Source: a virus. From it: a DNA stretch of 38,199 bases. The position numbers and the translations under genes were made by a program. The notes beneath the pieces were generated by a model. It saw nothing but the letters and a program-made list of their open reading frames with translations. It had not been told where the DNA came from and ran no database searches. Location of the stretch: positions 1 to 38,199 of the IMG/VR virus record IMGVR_UViG_3300028045_000004; one strand, given 5' to 3'. Of this stretch, positions 3,541 through 19,279 are shown one piece after another (the first letter of the stretch is position 1; each line of letters opens with the position of its first letter).

Positions 3541-3580
3541 GAAAAAAAAGCCCTCCCCCAAGGAGATAAGAGAGAGGGCT
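3541..3580 (-). terminator. Rho-independent terminator after the capsid gene
   Basis: AGCCCTC (3549-3555) pairs with GAGGGCT (3574-3580) across an 18-nt loop. Read on the minus strand, the stem is followed immediately by a run of eight T residues (3549 down to 3542). It begins 6 bp after the capsid stop. It would cap capsid-rich transcripts, with connector and tail genes expressed by read-through or another promoter. Confidence 0.9.
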
Positions 3581-3585
3581 ATTTA

Positions 3586-4545
3586 TTATGATTGGTCTGC
3601 GATAAGAACAACACCACCTGTGTGTTTGTCATTACTTACGTATTTATCCCAGTTTGTGCCAGTTGCAAGTTCTGCATCAGTAGGCGATTTACCGCCGTTT
3701 GTTACATCCCACGCATAACCTTTAACATTTACTCCAAAAGTATAATCCGTGTGAGAAATAAGCTCTGCACGATCCTTAGTAACATCTTCGCCCATTGTAT
3801 TAACAATATCAGAACCGTTATTAATTACTATGCCACCAGTTGTAAGCCCAAGTACACGATAATCAGTTGTTGCGTTTGTGAGTGCCGGAGCATCAGTAAC
3901 AACTGATATTTTACCCTGTACATCGATTACACGAACATTGCCAGCAGTGAAAAGAGTTGCTGTATTAACAAGAGCTTCATTAATCAATTGGTGATAAACA
4001 ATACCGTTCATGATGTTGGCAACAATTTGTTGTGATGCATCGCCAAATTTAGCGTATGTATCGTTGAGTGCGACCTGAGTTACAACCGCATTAGTTCCGG
4101 CAGTAATATCATTTGTTACACCAGCGTTATTTGCAAATGCCGCAGTAGCGGAAGCGATACCACTATTAAGCATATCTTGAAAGATACCTTCAGATACGCC
4201 ACGTGAAATTACCTCAATCCCTTCAGCAGGATTTTTCAATAGGTAGGTCATTTGAGCTGGCTCGAAAGCCATTTTAAAAGCACCTGCAACTTTAACGCCA
4301 ACACCTTCAATTTGCGCTAGGTCAGTAGCCGCTTTAGCGCCATTTGCCGCATATCGATCGACTCTATATTTTGAACTTTCAAAAGATGAATAGATTGCGT
4401 TTTTTATAAAATCGCCCTCAAACCCATCCATAGACATCTGAATAGCGCCATTAGATGCGCCATTAAAAGCTTCTAGCATTTGTGGGATAGTTTCGAGAAC
4501 GCTAGACTGAATCTCTCTACTATATACTTTCATATCTGATAACAT
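3586..4545 (-). CDS. Major capsid protein
   Basis: A 319-residue protein directly after the scaffold gene and followed by a strong terminator, the usual setting of the most abundant virion protein. Sequence features are an alpha-helical N-terminal arm (residues 1-45), a central Ala/Asn-rich stretch (about 125-200) and a beta-rich C-terminus ending in GGVVLIADQS. Start: ATG at 4545 with a GAGG ribosome-binding site 8 nt upstream. There is no separate protease domain; scaffold is made from its own gene. Assignment rests on context, size and composition. Confidence 0.8.
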   Translation of the reverse strand: MLSDMKVYSREIQSSVLETIPQMLEAFNGASNGAIQMSMDGFEGDFIKNAIYSSFESSKYRVDRYAANGAKAATDLAQIEGVGVKVAGAFKMAFEPAQMTYLLKNPAEGIEVISRGVSEGIFQDMLNSGIASATAAFANNAGVTNDITAGTNAVVTQVALNDTYAKFGDASQQIVANIMNGIVYHQLINEALVNTATLFTAGNVRVIDVQGKISVVTDAPALTNATTDYRVLGLTTGGIVINNGSDIVNTMGEDVTKDRAELISHTDYTFGVNVKGYAWDVTNGGKSPTDAELATGTNWDKYVSNDKHTGGVVLIADQS

Positions 4546-4561
4546 TGTATTACCTCTTTAA

Positions 4562-5254
4562 TTAAACAATTCCTTGAGCTTCTAGTCTCGCATGTATTGC
4601 CGCAGTACGTCCTTTAACGTCCTTTGGGTCAGTGTTGCGTAGGCTTGAACCTTCATTATAATTATTAGCACTAGGATTGCTCCCAGAGCCAGCTTTATGT
4701 ACAGAAGCAGTTAGGTATGGATTGTTTTCTGCGATTGTTTTTGCAAAATCTGATAAGTTTGTGTCTTCACCAATCTGGCTCATGTGTGCATTCATTGCTA
4801 AATCTTGTGCATTAGGGTCTTTAATATTGCTTGCTGTTAGCGCACTCCTAAAGCTATCCTTTAATACTCCAAGCTTATTTTTAGCTTCAGCTTGCTCCCA
4901 TTTACTAGTGATTTCATTCATTTTACCAGTTAAATCGGCTAATTGCTCTGTAGCATTAGCCGCTTCAAGTTCTTTGCTAGATGCACCCTTAGTCAAAGAG
5001 TCAATCTTTGTTTGGTATGTTTGCAGTGTTTCCCCAGCTTTTGAAATAAGGTCATCAGTAGGAATGTCTTTGTCAAGCCCTAAAAGTTCAGCCATTGTAT
5101 GCTTTACCCCTTTAAACTTTTTAACTTCACCTACTGCACTTTCTTTATTATCAATTAAGGCTCTCGCCTGAGACTCTATCTCAGTCAATGCGGATACCAG
5201 ACCCTCATTATCTTTTACCTGTTCTTTGATTTCGCTGAATTTACTTAAATCCAT
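4562..5254 (-). CDS. Capsid scaffolding protein
   Basis: A 230-residue, strongly helical, charged protein immediately upstream of the capsid gene. Long heptad-like stretches (residues 60-140) suggest a coiled coil, and the C-terminus is loose and polar (GSGSNPSANNYNEGSS), typical of minor scaffold proteins. The chosen ATG at 5254 has AAGGAAG 5 nt upstream. The same frame stays open to 5308, but that extension has no ribosome-binding site. It should direct procapsid assembly and then leave the head. Confidence 0.75.
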   Translation of the reverse strand: MDLSKFSEIKEQVKDNEGLVSALTEIESQARALIDNKESAVGEVKKFKGVKHTMAELLGLDKDIPTDDLISKAGETLQTYQTKIDSLTKGASSKELEAANATEQLADLTGKMNEITSKWEQAEAKNKLGVLKDSFRSALTASNIKDPNAQDLAMNAHMSQIGEDTNLSDFAKTIAENNPYLTASVHKAGSGSNPSANNYNEGSSLRNTDPKDVKGRTAAIHARLEAQGIV

Positions 5255-5349
5255 TTTACTTCCTTTTATTTGATTGACATCTAGTCTATTAGGTGCATCA
5301 AGCCCCATGTAATGAATTTAGAAACGTGAAAATTATCGTTTTACATTGA

Positions 5350-5420: not shown

Positions 5421-5558
5421 ATGGGTAATATAAATGTAACGGGTCACGCTAAAGAGAAATTAGACTCACTAAAAAAACATGAAAACAGGACGGCCTCTAA
5501 CATGGTTGAAACTTTAATCATAAGAGCTTATAATGCGCTTAAATCGGTCGGCAAATAA
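5421..5558 (+). CDS. Ribbon-helix-helix (Arc/MetJ-like) regulator
   Basis: A 45-residue protein with a ribbon-helix-helix pattern: a short beta strand (NINVTGHA), helix A (KEKLDSLKKH), a turn (ENRTAS) and helix B (NMVETLIIRAYNALK). Such proteins bind DNA as dimers and act as repressors or antitoxins. It is the first gene of a plus-strand island inside the minus-strand head module. The stop overlaps the next start as TAATG; an AGGT lies 5 nt before the ATG. No obvious toxin follows, so a regulator of the island itself is the simplest reading. Confidence 0.65.
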   Translation: MGNINVTGHAKEKLDSLKKHENRTASNMVETLIIRAYNALKSVGK

Positions 5559-5737
5559 TGGCCATATACGATTTCAGGTGTCACGAATGCGATACCATAA
5601 AAGAGTTCTCACTTTCAATGGCTAAATTCGATGAAGAACGTAAAAATGTTATCTGTTGCGGAAAGGTGATGGATAGATATTTTGATAACGATAACTTACC
5701 CGGAATCAGAACTGATTCTAGCCCTAATAGAGCTTAA
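5558..5737 (+). CDS. FmdB-like zinc-ribbon protein
   Basis: A 59-residue protein starting MAIYDFRCHECD, like the FmdB-type regulatory zinc ribbon. Cys8 and Cys11 form the first knuckle and Cys33/Cys34 the second, the latter as adjacent CC instead of the usual CxxC. The tail is short and polar. It is translationally coupled to the ribbon-helix-helix gene. Family members are small nucleic-acid- or protein-binding modules; a specific role here is not known. Confidence 0.6.
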   Translation: MAIYDFRCHECDTIKEFSLSMAKFDEERKNVICCGKVMDRYFDNDNLPGIRTDSSPNRA

Positions 5738-5749
5738 GGAGCGTGAATA

Positions 5750-5947
5750 GTGGTAAAAGATATGAATGATTTTATAATAACAAGTCTAAATGACGCAAAA
5801 CAACATATTGGATTTATAGAGAATGATATCATAAAAGAGATAACGCTCTCTCTAATTGACGCATGCTTTGAATCGCTAAAAGATGAAAAGCCTAATTATG
5901 AACTAATAAATACATGGATGTGCGCAATAGGCGAGGCGTTTAAATGA
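5750..5947 (+). CDS. Small helical protein, unknown function
   Basis: A 65-residue protein, predicted almost entirely helical (FIITSLNDAKQHIGFIEND, then DACFESLKD, then LINTWMCAIGEAFK). The GTG at 5750 is preferred because AAGGAG lies 8 nt upstream; an in-frame ATG at 5762 is the alternative. The stop overlaps a short downstream ORF by ATGA. No family recognised. Confidence 0.55.
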   Translation: MVKDMNDFIITSLNDAKQHIGFIENDIIKEITLSLIDACFESLKDEKPNYELINTWMCAIGEAFK

Positions 5948-5994
5948 ACGACTACAAAAGCATCAACCATATATGGGGTGAGGTATGGATATAG
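5944..5994 (+). CDS. 16-codon linking ORF
   Basis: ATG at 5944 overlaps the previous stop (ATGA), and the frame closes at TAG 5994, ten bases into the next gene. Its interior contains GGGGTGAGGT, the ribosome-binding site for the membrane protein at 5985. It may be a coupling mini-ORF or chance. Confidence 0.25.
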   Translation: MNDYKSINHIWGEVWI

Positions 5995-6152
5995 TATTTT
6001 TAAAAACAGCTTTTTTATTTTTATTTCTGTTTGTATTGGGGGCTTTTATTCTTAATACGAAATACAGCAGTGATTTTATAGAGAGCTTATCTATAGGTTG
6101 TTTACTTATAGGGTTTACATTTTTTATGACATTTATTTTTACATACTTTTAA
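5985..6152 (+). CDS. Small two-helix membrane protein
   Basis: A 55-residue, very hydrophobic protein with two membrane segments (about residues 5-23 and 37-54) joined by a short polar loop (NTKYSSDFIES). GAGGT precedes the ATG by only one base (5981-5984), so initiation may depend on coupling. Lying in an accessory island, it could be a small envelope-acting protein such as a superinfection-exclusion factor, but no family is recognised. Confidence 0.5.
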   Translation: MDIVFLKTAFLFLFLFVLGAFILNTKYSSDFIESLSIGCLLIGFTFFMTFIFTYF

Positions 6153-6272
6153 CCTGACTAGTTATAAGTATCGATTCGTGTATAGGTCGTGCATGAATCT
6201 TAAGGTCAGGCCCGTTCACATGGAAGGTGTGGTGTGTATGCATGGTGGCGTTTGTGGAGTAATTACCCTTAT

Positions 6273-6297
6273 ATCGGTTCGAATCCGAGAGTGCACT
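6273..6297 (+). other. tRNA-like T-arm and acceptor remnant
   Basis: The stretch contains a T-arm signature: TCGG, the loop TTCGAAT, then CCGA, followed by AGTGCAC as a possible 3' acceptor strand. A partly matching 5' strand (GTGTGGT, 6227-6233) sits at the right distance for a 71-nt tRNA, but no acceptable D-arm or anticodon arm forms between them. It looks like a decayed or partial tRNA, or the tRNA-derived part of an attachment site. Confidence 0.35.
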
Positions 6298-6318
6298 TAA
6301 CTTAATGGGAGTATTGGT

Positions 6319-6537
6319 ATGGAGATAAAGTATAAATGTAATTGCGGTTGGATAGGTGCTGAATCAGAAATGGGTGCGGATTATTATTTTACTGAATATG
6401 ATGAGATATGGTCAAACTGGATATGTCCTAGTTGTAAAGAGTGGCATAGCTTAGATGATTATGACATAATGAGCAACATAGAAAATTTACATAATGAAAA
6501 ACTCAACTCTTCGGATAATCCCGATACAAATCATTAG
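6319..6537 (+). CDS. Zinc-ribbon protein, unknown function
   Basis: A 72-residue acidic protein with a clear zinc-ribbon pattern: CNCGWIG near the start (Cys7, Cys9) and CPSCKEWH (Cys36, Cys39). GGGAG lies 9 nt before the ATG. Its last 35 bases overlap the 3' end of the gp7-like head gene tail to tail, so its end and that of the minus-strand gene share DNA. It closes the plus-strand island. Function unknown. Confidence 0.6.
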   Translation: MEIKYKCNCGWIGAESEMGADYYFTEYDEIWSNWICPSCKEWHSLDDYDIMSNIENLHNEKLNSSDNPDTNH

Positions 6538-7573: not shown

Positions 7574-9012
7574 TATTCATCAATATTTGGTGGGTTATCG
7601 AATGTGTCGTTATTTGTCTCTGTAACAGAAGCTATTTCCATCTTGGCCAATTTATCCGCTCTGTCTGCATCACTTGGATAGACTATTTTAATCATGTCCG
7701 CTCTAATCTCTTTTGCAACTTTTTCGCTAACCCCTGCATCTATAAGCATTTGTAACGAGTTGAGTTCATCTGATTTTGTAAGGCTCTCGAAATCCTTTGG
7801 ATATACAACAATATAATCCCATGACCCATCAATGTAATTGGTAAGAGCTACATTTACTAACCATTTCTCCTGATCTTGTATGTCTTGAGCGTCTTGTTTA
7901 AGTTTTTCAATCCTTCTACGATCTGCCTCCATTCTTGCTTCACCACTCGCAGTAGATGCAATAGAGACTGTACTATTCATGTTCTGCTTAATCTCACGTA
8001 TAAGCCTAGCAACCTCTTCTATCATAACGCTAAGGTGCGCAGTAGGTGGGGCCACATATCCAGGAGCGTTCACACCTTCACCCATGTACATGAAAGTTGA
8101 ATCATTGCCCAAATCCATATCATCCGGTACCTTACCATTAATAGCAAGAAAAGCGAAACAGTTTTTGAAAAATGAATCATTAAACCATGAGGTTGTATTG
8201 TATATCTTCTTAACTACTGTTAAAATATCGATATACTTAGATTTAGCAATAACATTTCCTTGATATCTTGAGTTGTCCTCTAAGAGCGAAACCGGAAACT
8301 CTTCTAGAAATAAAACAGAATCTTCTATGACAGCTTCAGCATGATAATTAAATGTAACGTTGCGACCGTCATCGGCTCTTAGCCATACTTTCCATTTATA
8401 TTCATTTGATGATACATAAGTACCGTTCTCGTTATTTCTTTGGTCAATGTCCTCAAAATATATAAGTAGCTTTAGTGCTCCGCCCTCATCAAATGCATAA
8501 CCCTCTATCTGTAGTGGATTAACATAAAACGAATAAGGCATTAACTCTCTTGCTCCATTTGAGGCACCCGTTAATGCTGTGGCACTTGGAGCATCAAGCA
8601 CTTCCCATACTGCGCCATAAAGCTTTGTTTCAATCTCTTTACGTCTCTGGTACTCTGGCATTGATTCATTGTCTTTCTTTGTCGGGCCTTGTATAAATAG
8701 ATCAACAACAGGATTTACTTCACGCCTAACCTGTTCTTTTGCAAATATAGGGTCAACCATTGCCTCAAGCTCTGGCTTAAATACATTCTCATAGTGCGCT
8801 ATTTTCTTACGTACACTAAAAAAGTCAGTTGTACCGTTTGTACCGTCACCTTCTCTTGGAAATTGCTCAAGATAAGACCCAGTTGAGAACCCACCAGTGC
8901 CGTAATACATGTCCCTGAGACCTTTATACTCTGTTATATCGGTAGTCGAAAATGTATTATAGTAATAATCAACACCCTCGAATTTTATGCTTTTTGCGTT
9001 TATATTGGGCAT
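7573..9012 (-). CDS. Portal protein
   Basis: A 479-residue protein between large terminase and the gp7-like gene, the classical portal slot. Size, many charged helices (residues about 320-385, VARLIREIKQNMN and RRIEKLKQDAQDIQDQ) and central beta segments fit a siphovirus portal ring subunit, the dodecameric channel for DNA entry and tail attachment. TAATG overlaps at both ends indicate translational coupling. Confidence 0.83.
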   Translation of the reverse strand: MPNINAKSIKFEGVDYYYNTFSTTDITEYKGLRDMYYGTGGFSTGSYLEQFPREGDGTNGTTDFFSVRKKIAHYENVFKPELEAMVDPIFAKEQVRREVNPVVDLFIQGPTKKDNESMPEYQRRKEIETKLYGAVWEVLDAPSATALTGASNGARELMPYSFYVNPLQIEGYAFDEGGALKLLIYFEDIDQRNNENGTYVSSNEYKWKVWLRADDGRNVTFNYHAEAVIEDSVLFLEEFPVSLLEDNSRYQGNVIAKSKYIDILTVVKKIYNTTSWFNDSFFKNCFAFLAINGKVPDDMDLGNDSTFMYMGEGVNAPGYVAPPTAHLSVMIEEVARLIREIKQNMNSTVSIASTASGEARMEADRRRIEKLKQDAQDIQDQEKWLVNVALTNYIDGSWDYIVVYPKDFESLTKSDELNSLQMLIDAGVSEKVAKEIRADMIKIVYPSDADRADKLAKMEIASVTETNNDTFDNPPNIDE

Positions 9013-10337
9013 TACATTAATCCTTTTATTTTCATTGTTTTAGGTGGTGGCACTAATACAAAATACATTCTCATCATAAATGGGTCTGAGTAGTCAGTAG
9101 ATCTACCAGTCATTTCTTTTATTTTATCTTTTGGAATAACTCTTATCTTTTCGTCTTTGTCACTATTCCAGTCTCTTATTTGCTCTAGGTCTTCTATTAA
9201 TTTAGATTTTATTTCACTATCTGTAAATTTTATGGCAATTTCACCATTATTAACCATTTTTGCTATCTCAAAGTAGCATTGACTCTTTAAATTAGCGTAA
9301 TTTGTTTTCATTTTTGCTTTTGAGTTATTTACAAATCCTGTGTAATTACCAAAATCAACTAACCCACCACCTACTCCGTCCTCATCCACAATAATATTAT
9401 GTTGTTGAACCCTGTATTCTTTTGACAGCCTCTGTAACTGCTCATGAGTGTAGTCTAATGGTTTTTTTCCGAATGATAAAGCGTGTATTAATTGCCACCC
9501 AGACCAGACGTATATTACTGTTTTGTCCTCACCAAGGCGGGCTATATCGGCTGTAATATACATTGTTCCTTTCTCGGTGTAATTGTTGCTCCACATATCT
9601 ATTATCGAATCATATTCAAATAACTTTGTAGGATCTGAATCATAACGCCAATTACCATAAAGGAGCCTTTGCTTTGATGCTTCATCCATTTTATGTAATG
9701 ATTTGATATATTCAGGGTCAGCGTGTGGATTATCTGATATTAGAGCCTGTATGAACGCTTTATCATCAGTCAACACATTGTCTTCGTAAGGCTTGAAGAA
9801 CTCCGTAAACACCCAATTCTTAGCTGGGTTACAACTCATGAGCATCTTAGGAATTATATTAAATTCTTTGAGCTTATATCTAATACGAGATTTAACAACC
9901 TCTACTGCTTTTCTAACGCACTGATTGCATTCGTCTATAAATGCCCCCGATACTTCAAGAGATCCGAGACTGTCAAAATTAGGATCTGAAGGATACAGGA
10001 ACAAATCTTTAAGTATTATAACTGAATCATTATAAAACGATATTTCACCATTTTGGGCGTTATAGTTAAAGTGCTCAACCGGCTTTAAATTCAACAACTT
10101 ACATACATCAAAGAAAGTAGCTAGTGTTGTCTGTTTAAGATTTTTTAGCTTTGAACGACCTATAAGCCAACGAGATTCATCATAATTCAATGCCATTGTT
10201 ATAATCCATAGGCAACCGAGAAATGTCTTACCACCGAATACACCGCCACCGTACAATATTTCGTTGGTAGATTTATCCTCTAGTTTTTCCCATGCCACAG
10301 ATTGAGTCTGTGTAAGCTCGACATCAATTGTCGGCAT
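9012..10337 (-). CDS. terL: Terminase large subunit
   Basis: A 441-residue packaging motor. The ATPase half shows a Walker A motif GGGVFGGKT (residues 30-38), a Walker B segment AFIDE (132-136, Glu136 catalytic) and a coupling motif SCNP (168-171). The nuclease half has the expected acidic residues: Asp264 in TADIARLGED, Asp318/Asp320 in IIVDEDGVG and Asp415/Asp418 in STDYSDPF. All key residues appear intact. It overlaps the small-subunit gene by 14 bp and portal by TAATG. Confidence 0.95.
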   Translation of the reverse strand: MPTIDVELTQTQSVAWEKLEDKSTNEILYGGGVFGGKTFLGCLWIITMALNYDESRWLIGRSKLKNLKQTTLATFFDVCKLLNLKPVEHFNYNAQNGEISFYNDSVIILKDLFLYPSDPNFDSLGSLEVSGAFIDECNQCVRKAVEVVKSRIRYKLKEFNIIPKMLMSCNPAKNWVFTEFFKPYEDNVLTDDKAFIQALISDNPHADPEYIKSLHKMDEASKQRLLYGNWRYDSDPTKLFEYDSIIDMWSNNYTEKGTMYITADIARLGEDKTVIYVWSGWQLIHALSFGKKPLDYTHEQLQRLSKEYRVQQHNIIVDEDGVGGGLVDFGNYTGFVNNSKAKMKTNYANLKSQCYFEIAKMVNNGEIAIKFTDSEIKSKLIEDLEQIRDWNSDKDEKIRVIPKDKIKEMTGRSTDYSDPFMMRMYFVLVPPPKTMKIKGLM

Positions 10338-10632
10338 TTTTCTTTATAATGTTGATTTTTAGACCGTCATCGTCAGCATTGCCTATTTCTATGTTCTGCT
10401 TAGACTTGCCATATGACCTATCGAATAGTTCTTTAATTGCCCGTATATCGCCACTAATGGCCATGCCTTCAAGAACTTCAAGTATTGTATCGAGCTTGCC
10501 TTCCTTCTCTAATCTTTCCCTAAGCTTTAAATCGAAAGGCTTTCTCTTGCCTATTTTACCACACTCAGACGCTCTATTATCATCTTTTGTGAATGGGGTA
10601 AGATTGGGGTACTTTTCGCTATCTTCACTCAT
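10324..10632 (-). CDS. terS: Terminase small subunit
   Basis: A 102-residue protein just upstream of the large terminase. It has a KIGKRKPFDLKLRERL basic stretch followed by GMAISGDIRAIKELFDRSYGKSKQ, a helix seen in small terminases and related DNA-binding phage proteins. It lacks a good ribbosomal binding site of its own (only GTGG upstream), and its ATG overlaps the stop of a 20-codon leader, so coupling is likely. Its role would be recognition of the packaging site. Confidence 0.75.
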   Translation of the reverse strand: MSEDSEKYPNLTPFTKDDNRASECGKIGKRKPFDLKLRERLEKEGKLDTILEVLEGMAISGDIRAIKELFDRSYGKSKQNIEIGNADDDGLKINIIKKNADN

Positions 10633-10687
10633 AGTAAAACCACGTAATACCCACGTTTTCGGTGGTAATTGTAAAAACTTCTATCAT
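10625..10687 (-). CDS. 20-codon leader ORF before small terminase
   Basis: ATG at 10687 is preceded by GAGG with 5-nt spacing, a better signal than that of the terminase gene it precedes. It encodes MIEVFTITTENVGITWFYYE and ends at TGA 10625, 8 bp inside the small-terminase gene (ATGAGTGA). The GA of its GAGG lies within the 3' arm of the structured leader (10695-10754). It may be a coupling or sensing peptide; expression is unproven. Confidence 0.45.
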   Translation of the reverse strand: MIEVFTITTENVGITWFYYE

Positions 10688-10694
10688 AAACGCC

Positions 10695-10754
10695 TCAAGT
10701 GTAAATTATTTGCCAATCAATGGCCATTTACGGGAATCAATCCCATACACTTGA
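10695..10754 (-). promoter_or_regulatory. Three-way-junction leader of the late operon
   Basis: A 9-bp outer stem, TCAAGTGTA (10695-10703) with TACACTTGA (10746-10754), encloses two small hairpins: GCCAATCAATGGC (10712-10724) and GGGAATCAATCCC (10732-10744). Both hairpins have 4-bp stems and the same five-base loop, with an identical central AATCAAT. On the minus-strand transcript this is the expected 5' end, given the promoter just upstream. The outer stem runs into the GAGG of the leader ORF. It could be a regulatory RNA, a protein-bound DNA site, or part of the packaging site. Confidence 0.65.
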
Positions 10755-10782
10755 ATATAACTAAATTGTTAATTATTGCCAA
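10754..10782 (-). promoter_or_regulatory. Sigma70-type promoter for the late operon
   Basis: On the minus strand TTGGCA (10782-10777), 17 bp, TATATT (10759-10754). The -35 box overlaps the stop of the upstream lipoprotein gene. The start of transcription would fall near 10747, at the first arm of the three-way junction. The match to consensus is good without an activator. Confidence 0.7.
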
Positions 10783-13073: not shown

Positions 13074-13382
13074 TTAATTATCTGTTTGGCTAGACAGTGT
13101 TTCTTTAATTAAATTTCTTAGTATTTGTTTGATGCTTTCTTGTGAGTCTTCAGTAAATGCAATTCCAGCTCCTCTCTCTGATGGCTCATAAGCGCAAGAA
13201 GAAAGTTCTTCCAAAATACTAAGTGCAACCTCATCAAGCTTCTCTTCCTGTTCCTTTGCTTCAAAATATGGCTCCAATGCATCGCTGTAATTATCCCAGT
13301 TATCCACGCCACCCCTTTCAAGGCATGACATTTTAAACTCTATCTCTTCTAATTCTTTTAATCTTTCATTTGTTATATTCAT
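13074..13382 (-). CDS. 102-residue acidic protein, unknown function
   Basis: A helical acidic protein: LKELEEIEFKMSC at the start, EAKEQEEKLDEVALSILEEL in the middle, then SIKQILRNLIKETL. It begins 4 bp after the stop of the preceding gene, with AGGAAGAT upstream. No recognised family. Confidence 0.5.
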   Translation of the reverse strand: MNITNERLKELEEIEFKMSCLERGGVDNWDNYSDALEPYFEAKEQEEKLDEVALSILEELSSCAYEPSERGAGIAFTEDSQESIKQILRNLIKETLSSQTDN

Positions 13383-18904: not shown

Positions 18905-19279
18905 TTATTTAGTTACCTCATTTAAAATATTACTAATCCCCCTAAGTTGATTTAGCGTAATGTTTACTGGGCGGCCGTATCGGAACTTATCGCAAATTAA
19001 TCTTGATAAAACCCAATACTCTTCCTCATCTTTGATTGCTTGTTTTGATTCGTACACCTTATAGCATTTTGAGTACTCTGTGCGCTCATAAAATGTCTCT
19101 TTGTTGAATGCGTAATCAGATAAATATCCATCCAAGTAGAAGTACTTACGGCCAACCTTTACTACCTTATATTCATCTACAGGTATCTCAAGATTATTAT
19201 TTATGTAGTATCTTGCGCTATCACCAGTTTTTTTAACTAATACAGTTTGCCCTACTCTTAAGTTGAATTTTTTTTTCAT
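18905..19279 (-). CDS. 124-residue basic early protein
   Basis: The N-terminal half is beta-rich (LRVGQTVLVKKTGDSARYYI, then EYKVVKVGRKYFYLDG), reminiscent of a small SH3-like barrel seen in phage early proteins. The C-terminal part is helical. It overlaps the winged-helix gene by ATGA. Function unknown. Confidence 0.55.
   Translation of the reverse strand: MKKKFNLRVGQTVLVKKTGDSARYYINNNLEIPVDEYKVVKVGRKYFYLDGYLSDYAFNKETFYERTEYSKCYKVYESKQAIKDEEEYWVLSRLICDKFRYGRPVNITLNQLRGISNILNEVTK

Follow-up and report, generated by a model that had tools for sequence, protein, structure and literature searches.

What is the pair of hairpins that stands between a promoter-like sequence and the small-terminase gene (terS) in this viral genome, and does it act as DNA or as RNA? 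The sequence-only reading of the window (the whole 38,199-nt stretch of DNA analysed here) had described a late-operon leader folded as a three-way junction with two identical loops, either a switch for packaging genes or a terminase recognition site. Here we compare the locus with its counterparts in four relatives, L002, L003, L004 and L229, which were retrieved through the large terminase (TerL) and not through the hairpins, and with leaders in other phage groups. The twin hairpins are real, recur at two places and are conserved, and the leader is probably a control site, so far unrecorded, for virus head production.

Twin-hairpin leaders before terS and scaffold

The twin hairpins before terS (copy 1) lie where they had been reported, but on the minus strand, together with the late genes; the earlier description quoted the plus-strand complements, and in the RNA the loop is UUGAU (Table 1). 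When each stem arm must contain two or more G/C, twin hairpins with identical loops occur at one locus in the 38 kb (visible from both strands) and at none in 30 simulated windows. Folding of the leader as a whole (z −1.4) is weak evidence. The promoter TTGGCA-17-TATATT is likewise present, and a −10 box of the form TAnnTT occurs in every copy described below, but the promoter is one of 50 sigma70-like matches in the window where 48.5 are expected, and therefore carries no weight alone; its −35 match is not general, being found only in copy 1 of the window and L002, L003 and L004.

Downstream, a short leader ORF runs into terS, which, as had been noted, has no good Shine–Dalgarno sequence (SD) of its own. 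The leader ORFs of the window, L002 and L003 (20, 14 and 18 codons) show no clear sequence similarity among them; the stop of each overlaps the terS ATG by a few bases, and there is none in L004 or L229, whose terS is of another type.

Table 1. Features of the two leaders and their genes, in window coordinates, with the corresponding hairpins of relatives
Feature	Position	Strand	Basis or remark
−35-like TTGGCA, copy 1	10777..10782	−	missing in L229 and in copy-2 promoters
−10-like TATATT, copy 1	10754..10759	−	17 nt from TTGGCA; TAnnTT box in 9/9 copies
Outer-stem 5′ arm TCAAGTGTA	10746..10754	−	overlaps −10; not conserved
Hairpin 1, copy 1, GGGA-UUGAU-UCCC = GGGATTGATTCCC	10732..10744	−	covariation and folds; 9 nt past −10
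Hairpin 2, copy 1, GCCA-UUGAU-UGGC = GCCATTGATTGGC	10712..10724	−	covariation
Outer-stem 3′ arm TACACTTGA	10695..10703	−	overlaps hairpin 3; runs into GAGG
Hairpin 3, degenerate, ACACU-UGA-GGCGU	10690..10702	−	SD (GAGG) in loop and 3′ arm; one A·C mismatch in window
Leader ORF, 20 codons	10625..10687	−	stop overlaps terS start; overlapping leader ORFs also in L002, L003
terS, 102 aa	10324..10632	−	precedes terL; 68% identity to L003 TerS over 85 aa
terL	9012..10337	−	PHROG 979, 6e-26
Small gene cluster	5558..6537	+	between head morphogenesis and scaffold genes
−10-like TAAATT, copy 2	5315..5320	−	TAnnTT box in 9/9 copies
Hairpin pair, copy 2	5276..5306	−	5′ of scaffold gene
Hairpin 1, copy 2, GGGGC-UUGAU-GCACC	5292..5306	−	one G·A mismatch; perfect in L002, L003, L218, L223
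Hairpin 2, copy 2, GAC-UAGAU-GUC	5276..5286	−	UAGAU loop
Capsid scaffold gene (putative)	4562..5254	−	PF06810, 4.5e-5 (below curated cut-off), and gene order
Major capsid protein	3586..4545	−	PHROG 247, 8e-52
Terminator-like hairpin	3576..3551	−	strong, with T run directly 3′ of major capsid gene
Copy 1 hairpins, L003			AGGC-UUGAU-GCCU; GCUC-UUGAU-GGGC
Copy 1 hairpins, L004			GGGC-UUGAA-GCUC; ACCC-UAGAU-GGGU
Copy 1 hairpins, L229			CGGG-UUGAU-CCUG; GCCC-UUGAU-GGGC
Hairpin 3, L002 and L004			ACACU-UGA-GGUGU
Hairpin 3, L003			GUACU-UGA-GGUAU
Hairpin 3, L229			AUACU-AGA-GGUAU

A second, diverged hairpin pair (copy 2), overlooked earlier, lies before the putative capsid scaffold gene in the window, and a pair at this position is also present in L002 and L003; L218 and L223 were added by a pattern scan. 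The scaffold assignment, suggested by a weak PF06810 match and by gene order in annotated relatives, agrees in position with the annotated scaffold genes of GJ44, Tsm2 and Kakheti25, and the gene probably starts at 5254 rather than at the mechanical ATG at 5308, which falls inside the leader. Upstream of this unit, a cluster of small genes runs on the plus strand, its first ORF zinc-ribbon-like with a weak PHROG 385 match; L003 has such a cluster too. An interposed plus-strand cluster would account for the separate promoter of the scaffold unit.

Conservation and covariation in the window clade

All four relatives carry two hairpins at the same position before terS: in L002 (98%) the element is identical to that of the window, and in L003, L004 (69% by TerL search) and L229 the stems differ, with G–U pairs used in all three. 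The loop is on the transcript strand in every copy. On gapless stem alignments of nine copies, eight of them distinct, from the window, L002, L003, L004, L229, L218 and L223, 93.8% of stem cells are paired compared with 57.4% after shuffling and 31–42% in slid registers, and 22 cells are doubly changed compared with 7.2 (0/500 shuffles), counts that come from related and hence non-independent sequences with hairpin registers and 4–6-bp cores chosen by hand, and that lean towards structure because L218 and L223 were detected by a pattern fixing loops and inner pairs, although the terS and scaffold positions and most outer pairs remained free. Pairing is thus conserved in related phages, bearing out the proposal that the stems and a specific loop are under selection.

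Upstream of hairpin 1, a TAnnTT box occurs at 7–9 nt in all nine copies; because the box was picked to fit, its letters are in part invariant by design, and it is the constant distance that informs. Hairpin 2 ends 17–25 nt upstream of the AUG. A composite scan of 2.2 Mb for the −10 box, hairpin 1 and hairpin 2 returned the leaders of the clade and two chance places, with none in 40 simulated windows; it missed copy 2 of the window because of the G·A mismatch in hairpin 1. Further pattern scans gave only chance matches outside the known clade, without hairpin-1 stems. TerL relatives at 40–58% identity (L006–L012, L138–L216) have no twin hairpins. A prophage search with the TerL tail gave no match, nor did a similarity search of phage records with the leader DNA. 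TerS of the window and of L004 show no similarity, and those of L004 and L229 are 48% identical; at the same leader, terS has been swapped for an unrelated protein (window 10324–10632, L004:2338–2694, L229:583–939), with TerL about 69% identical.

The outer stem fared differently. The two 9-bp arms exist, but their pairing is modest, the strength of the duplex between upstream and SD regions having a P of 0.033 in the window, 0.145 in L003, 0.004 in L004 and 0.088 in L229, with none in copy 2; the arms differ in place relative to the −10 box, and pairing at the window's position is missing in L004 and L229. The fixed three-way junction was therefore rejected as the conserved fold. Nor does the RNA seem to begin with the 5′ arm, as had been supposed: the first base of the arm is also the final base of the −10 box, so most of the arm would be absent from RNA started at the copy 1 promoter. 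With real upstream sequence set against shuffled, closure of the SD stands out in L004 alone (0/200; window 0.155, L003 0.475, L229 0.18, copy 2 none), where a 14-bp arm lies 5′ of the −10 box, and occlusion of the SD in read-through RNA is not supported as a general rule.

A third hairpin, with a W-G-A loop and holding the SD, accounts for the conserved CACTTGAGG better than an arm of the outer stem does. In RNA with the late start, this hairpin forms with a probability of 0.90–0.99 in L002, L003, L004 and L229 and of 0.10 in the window, which hardly forms it because GGCGU gives an A·C mismatch. Covariation in hairpin 3 is modest, with a single pair doubly changed (46/500), and copy 2 is without this hairpin.

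Other structures were seen around late starts in these genomes. In L003 (420–500), a GGGGTG...CACCCC hairpin with a T run lies just 5′ of the late promoter, where read-through from the early genes would come. L138 (2200–2330), a TerL relative at 58%, has a different terS leader, in which AGAGTTACC directly follows a TAGTAT box and has two potential pairing partners: GGTAACTCT, which lies in the loop of a long hairpin of terminator type (ACACAGG...CCTGTGTTTTTT), and the ribosome-binding region GGTGACGTAT; this leader looks like an attenuator or pseudoknot leader.

Kindred leaders in other phage groups

Relatives of the window's capsid protein are gammaproteobacterial phages, and kindred twin-hairpin leaders are found in Serratia phage Tsm2 and Oceanospirillum phage GJ44, as well as in Otaku, Smarc3, VLCpiS11a, HSE2, K1H, PVP-SE2 (Jerseyvirus), phiEap-2, PhiSTP1 (Cornellvirus) and SZH-1; the Dhillonvirus GeorgBuechner has one 5′ of its scaffold gene. 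The carriers among Guernseyvirinae are phages of Salmonella, E. coli, Klebsiella, Enterobacter and Serratia, with the element before terS and scaffold, as in GJ44, and all seven terS leaders in reach (Tsm2, Otaku, Smarc3, HSE2, phiEap-2, PhiSTP1 and GJ44) contain it. Stems from Guernseyvirinae, GJ44 and the Dhillonvirus are 99.2% paired compared with 52.5% in shuffles, with 54 doubly changed cells compared with 19.2 (0/500). A pattern of a −10 box, twin NGG hairpins and an ATG gave 16 matches in 11 phage loci, where 0.2 were expected, and 15 of the 16 lie directly 5′ of terS or scaffold. The element is missing in Kakheti25, Gungnir39, TCUAN1, Taid and Haden, which have a more distant capsid protein or belong to other lineages; Vibrio 242E40-1 (AGACC-AGA-GGUUU) and 1.167 carry partial look-alikes.

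The loops in Guernseyvirinae and GJ44 are NGG triloops, most often UGG (16) and AGG (17), the next commonest reaching 4; two GJ44 hairpins have GGG. Hairpin 1 lies 4–11 nt past the −10 box in eight of these leaders, and an SD-like AGGGG sits inside hairpin 2 in GJ44 and in the Guernseyvirinae scaffold leaders. In the window clade, UUGAU and UAGAU may be triloops UGA and AGA closed by a U·U mismatch; in hairpin 1 of L004 (UUGAA), a U–A pair closes the UGA triloop. Read in this way, a W-G-R triloop would be common to all leaders, and the scaffold leaders of both lineages have U-G-R in hairpin 1 and A-G-R in hairpin 2. A −10-like box, two hairpins with W-G-R loops (if the pentaloop of the window is so read), covarying stems and a place before terS, scaffold or both, the marks of the proposed tandem W-G-R triloop leader group, were all found. 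The UNGAU and NGG elements may thus share a common recognition; their architecture suggests homology, although convergence could have produced it.

Rfam 15 has no family at or above the gathering threshold for the window, L003, L004, L229 or the Guernseyvirinae, GJ44 and Vibrio loci. We found no description of a twin-hairpin leader in the open-access literature, nor of head-operon control in Guernseyvirinae (Jerseyvirus, Kagunavirus and Cornellvirus).

Possible modes of action

The position of the leader at the start of a late unit and the link to packaging-gene expression drawn in the sequence-only reading are both supported. Our preferred reading, which we hold with slightly less than even confidence, is that late head mRNAs begin with an RNA operator, which a factor reads and which most likely controls translation. 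Judging from the −10-like boxes, transcription would begin near the base of hairpin 1, which would place this hairpin at about +1 to +5 (about +3 to +5 in copy 1 of the window) and hairpin 2 2–10 nt later, each capped by a W-G-R triloop and together occupying the initial 35–50 nt of the late transcript. That the loop stays fixed while the stems are free, and that it comes back two or three times in a leader, points to a factor that reads loops; such an RNA-binding factor, phage- or host-encoded, would recognise the repeated loop on the leaders of the terminase and scaffold/capsid units and set ribosome entry, whether up or down, on the first cistron (leader ORF–terS, or scaffold). Packaging and capsid proteins would then be made together, with translation of terS in the window coupled to that of the leader ORF.

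The simplest account is control of ribosome entry, because the last hairpin sits on or just 5′ of the SD. Holding of the SD is not universal, since a mismatch breaks hairpin 3 of the window and copy 2 lacks such a hairpin altogether; moreover, hairpin 2 lies anywhere from 0 to 25 nt before the AUG across the lineages, a spread larger than we would like for a pure translational operator. CsrA/RsmA sites, T4 gp43 and coat-protein operators similarly place loop-specific hairpins, in multiple copies, at or near the SD; unlike these, the leader element is common to two units and several phage lineages. CsrA needs a GGA core, and the loops here are UGA, AGA, UGG, AGG and GGG. We also take seriously, without holding it probable, the wider possibility of an undescribed class of late-gene control RNA in which one factor would read the terS and scaffold leaders and couple the packaging motor to capsid production, in phages with unrelated terminases (the window clade, Guernseyvirinae, GJ44 and a Dhillonvirus).

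Could the nascent hairpins instead be read by RNA polymerase or an N-like factor, with antitermination or anti-pausing carrying transcription through the whole late unit? HK022 put acts in this way without protein, through the β′ zinc-binding domain, and lambda nut consists of boxA followed by boxB with a GNRA-like pentaloop. Each late unit opens with twin hairpins directly past its promoter, which is also where putL lies (PMC9378689); the late region of the window holds opposite-strand genes and a terminator-like hairpin past the capsid gene (Table 1), and a host target, RNA polymerase for example, would suit occurrence in phages of different terminase lineages. Yet putL, near an early promoter, is about 70 nt long, with two long, irregular stem-loops, a triplex region and non-canonical pairs (PMC9378689), an anatomy that the leaders do not have: they stand in late operons, and their elements are about 35–50 nt, with short regular stems and a repeated W-G-R triloop, and no sequence relation was seen. 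Lambda-type nut/boxB likewise opens a phage operon with a short hairpin, its small loop fixed and its stem free to covary, but the likeness is offset by the tandem arrangement, the late head operons, a last hairpin at the ribosome site, loops of UUGAU/UAGAU or NGG rather than a GNRA-like pentaloop, no boxA-like motif by eye and no Rfam match. Antitermination would also leave the SD inside the last hairpin of several leaders unexplained, and we consider it a live but less likely rival.

Stabilisation by a 5′-terminal hairpin, as in ompA mRNA, is a further candidate: hairpin 1 at the extreme 5′ end, as its spacing from the −10 box in both lineages suggests, would shield late mRNAs from RppH/RNase E-type decay, and late structural mRNAs would benefit from a long life. 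The 4-bp stems are weak, however, and stabilisation fits hairpin 1 only, accounting neither for a fixed loop on varying stems nor for second and third hairpins with the same loop, which makes it a weaker rival still, though also a live one. For T4 gene e, soc, 49 and I-TevI, a 5′ arm upstream of or within the late promoter pairs with the SD (PMC3014915), and the window's arm across its −10 box and the longer arm of L004 invite a comparison, in which read-through RNA would fold the outer stem over the SD and late-promoter RNA, without the arm, would be translated. Such occlusion may take place in L004, the one clear case, but is improbable as the general mode, leaving unaccounted for the twin loops, which, rather than the outer stem, are the conserved part. 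Least of all do we expect a DNA-level site for packaging (cos/pac), TerS binding or a repressor, to which the palindromic arms next to terS and the promoter might have pointed. A cos/pac or TerS-binding site would be lineage-tied and single in a genome; the element has a second copy before the scaffold gene and persists beside unrelated TerS. Together with the free stems, the loop fixed on the transcript strand and the G–U pairs, which break the DNA palindrome, this argues for an RNA element and against the terminase recognition site proposed earlier.

Guernseyvirinae are common Salmonella and E. coli phages. Because GeorgBuechner (Bas16) and Kagunavirus carry kindred elements, the preferred reading, an RNA operator read by a factor, can be tested in laboratory E. 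coli, the window phage itself being known from metagenomes only. The short RNA element could serve as bait for its partner, offering a testable idea for how packaging motor and capsid are balanced.

The window is a mosaic, with TerL nearest to Bacteroidota phages, a capsid nearest to gammaproteobacterial phages and SD-rich starts. A Bacteroidota host, suggested by the TerL matches, was rejected for translation, given SD motifs 5′ of most genes. Other minus-strand genes of the window encode a T7 gp5.9-like RecBCD inhibitor domain (13074–13382; PF25708, 4.6e-11), a protein with a phage ProQ C-terminal-like domain, RNA-related by name alone (18905–19279; PF24203, 1.9e-15), and a Major tropism determinant N-terminal domain (75–1862; PF18454), the last in a protein that also has a weak lipase/GDSL match.
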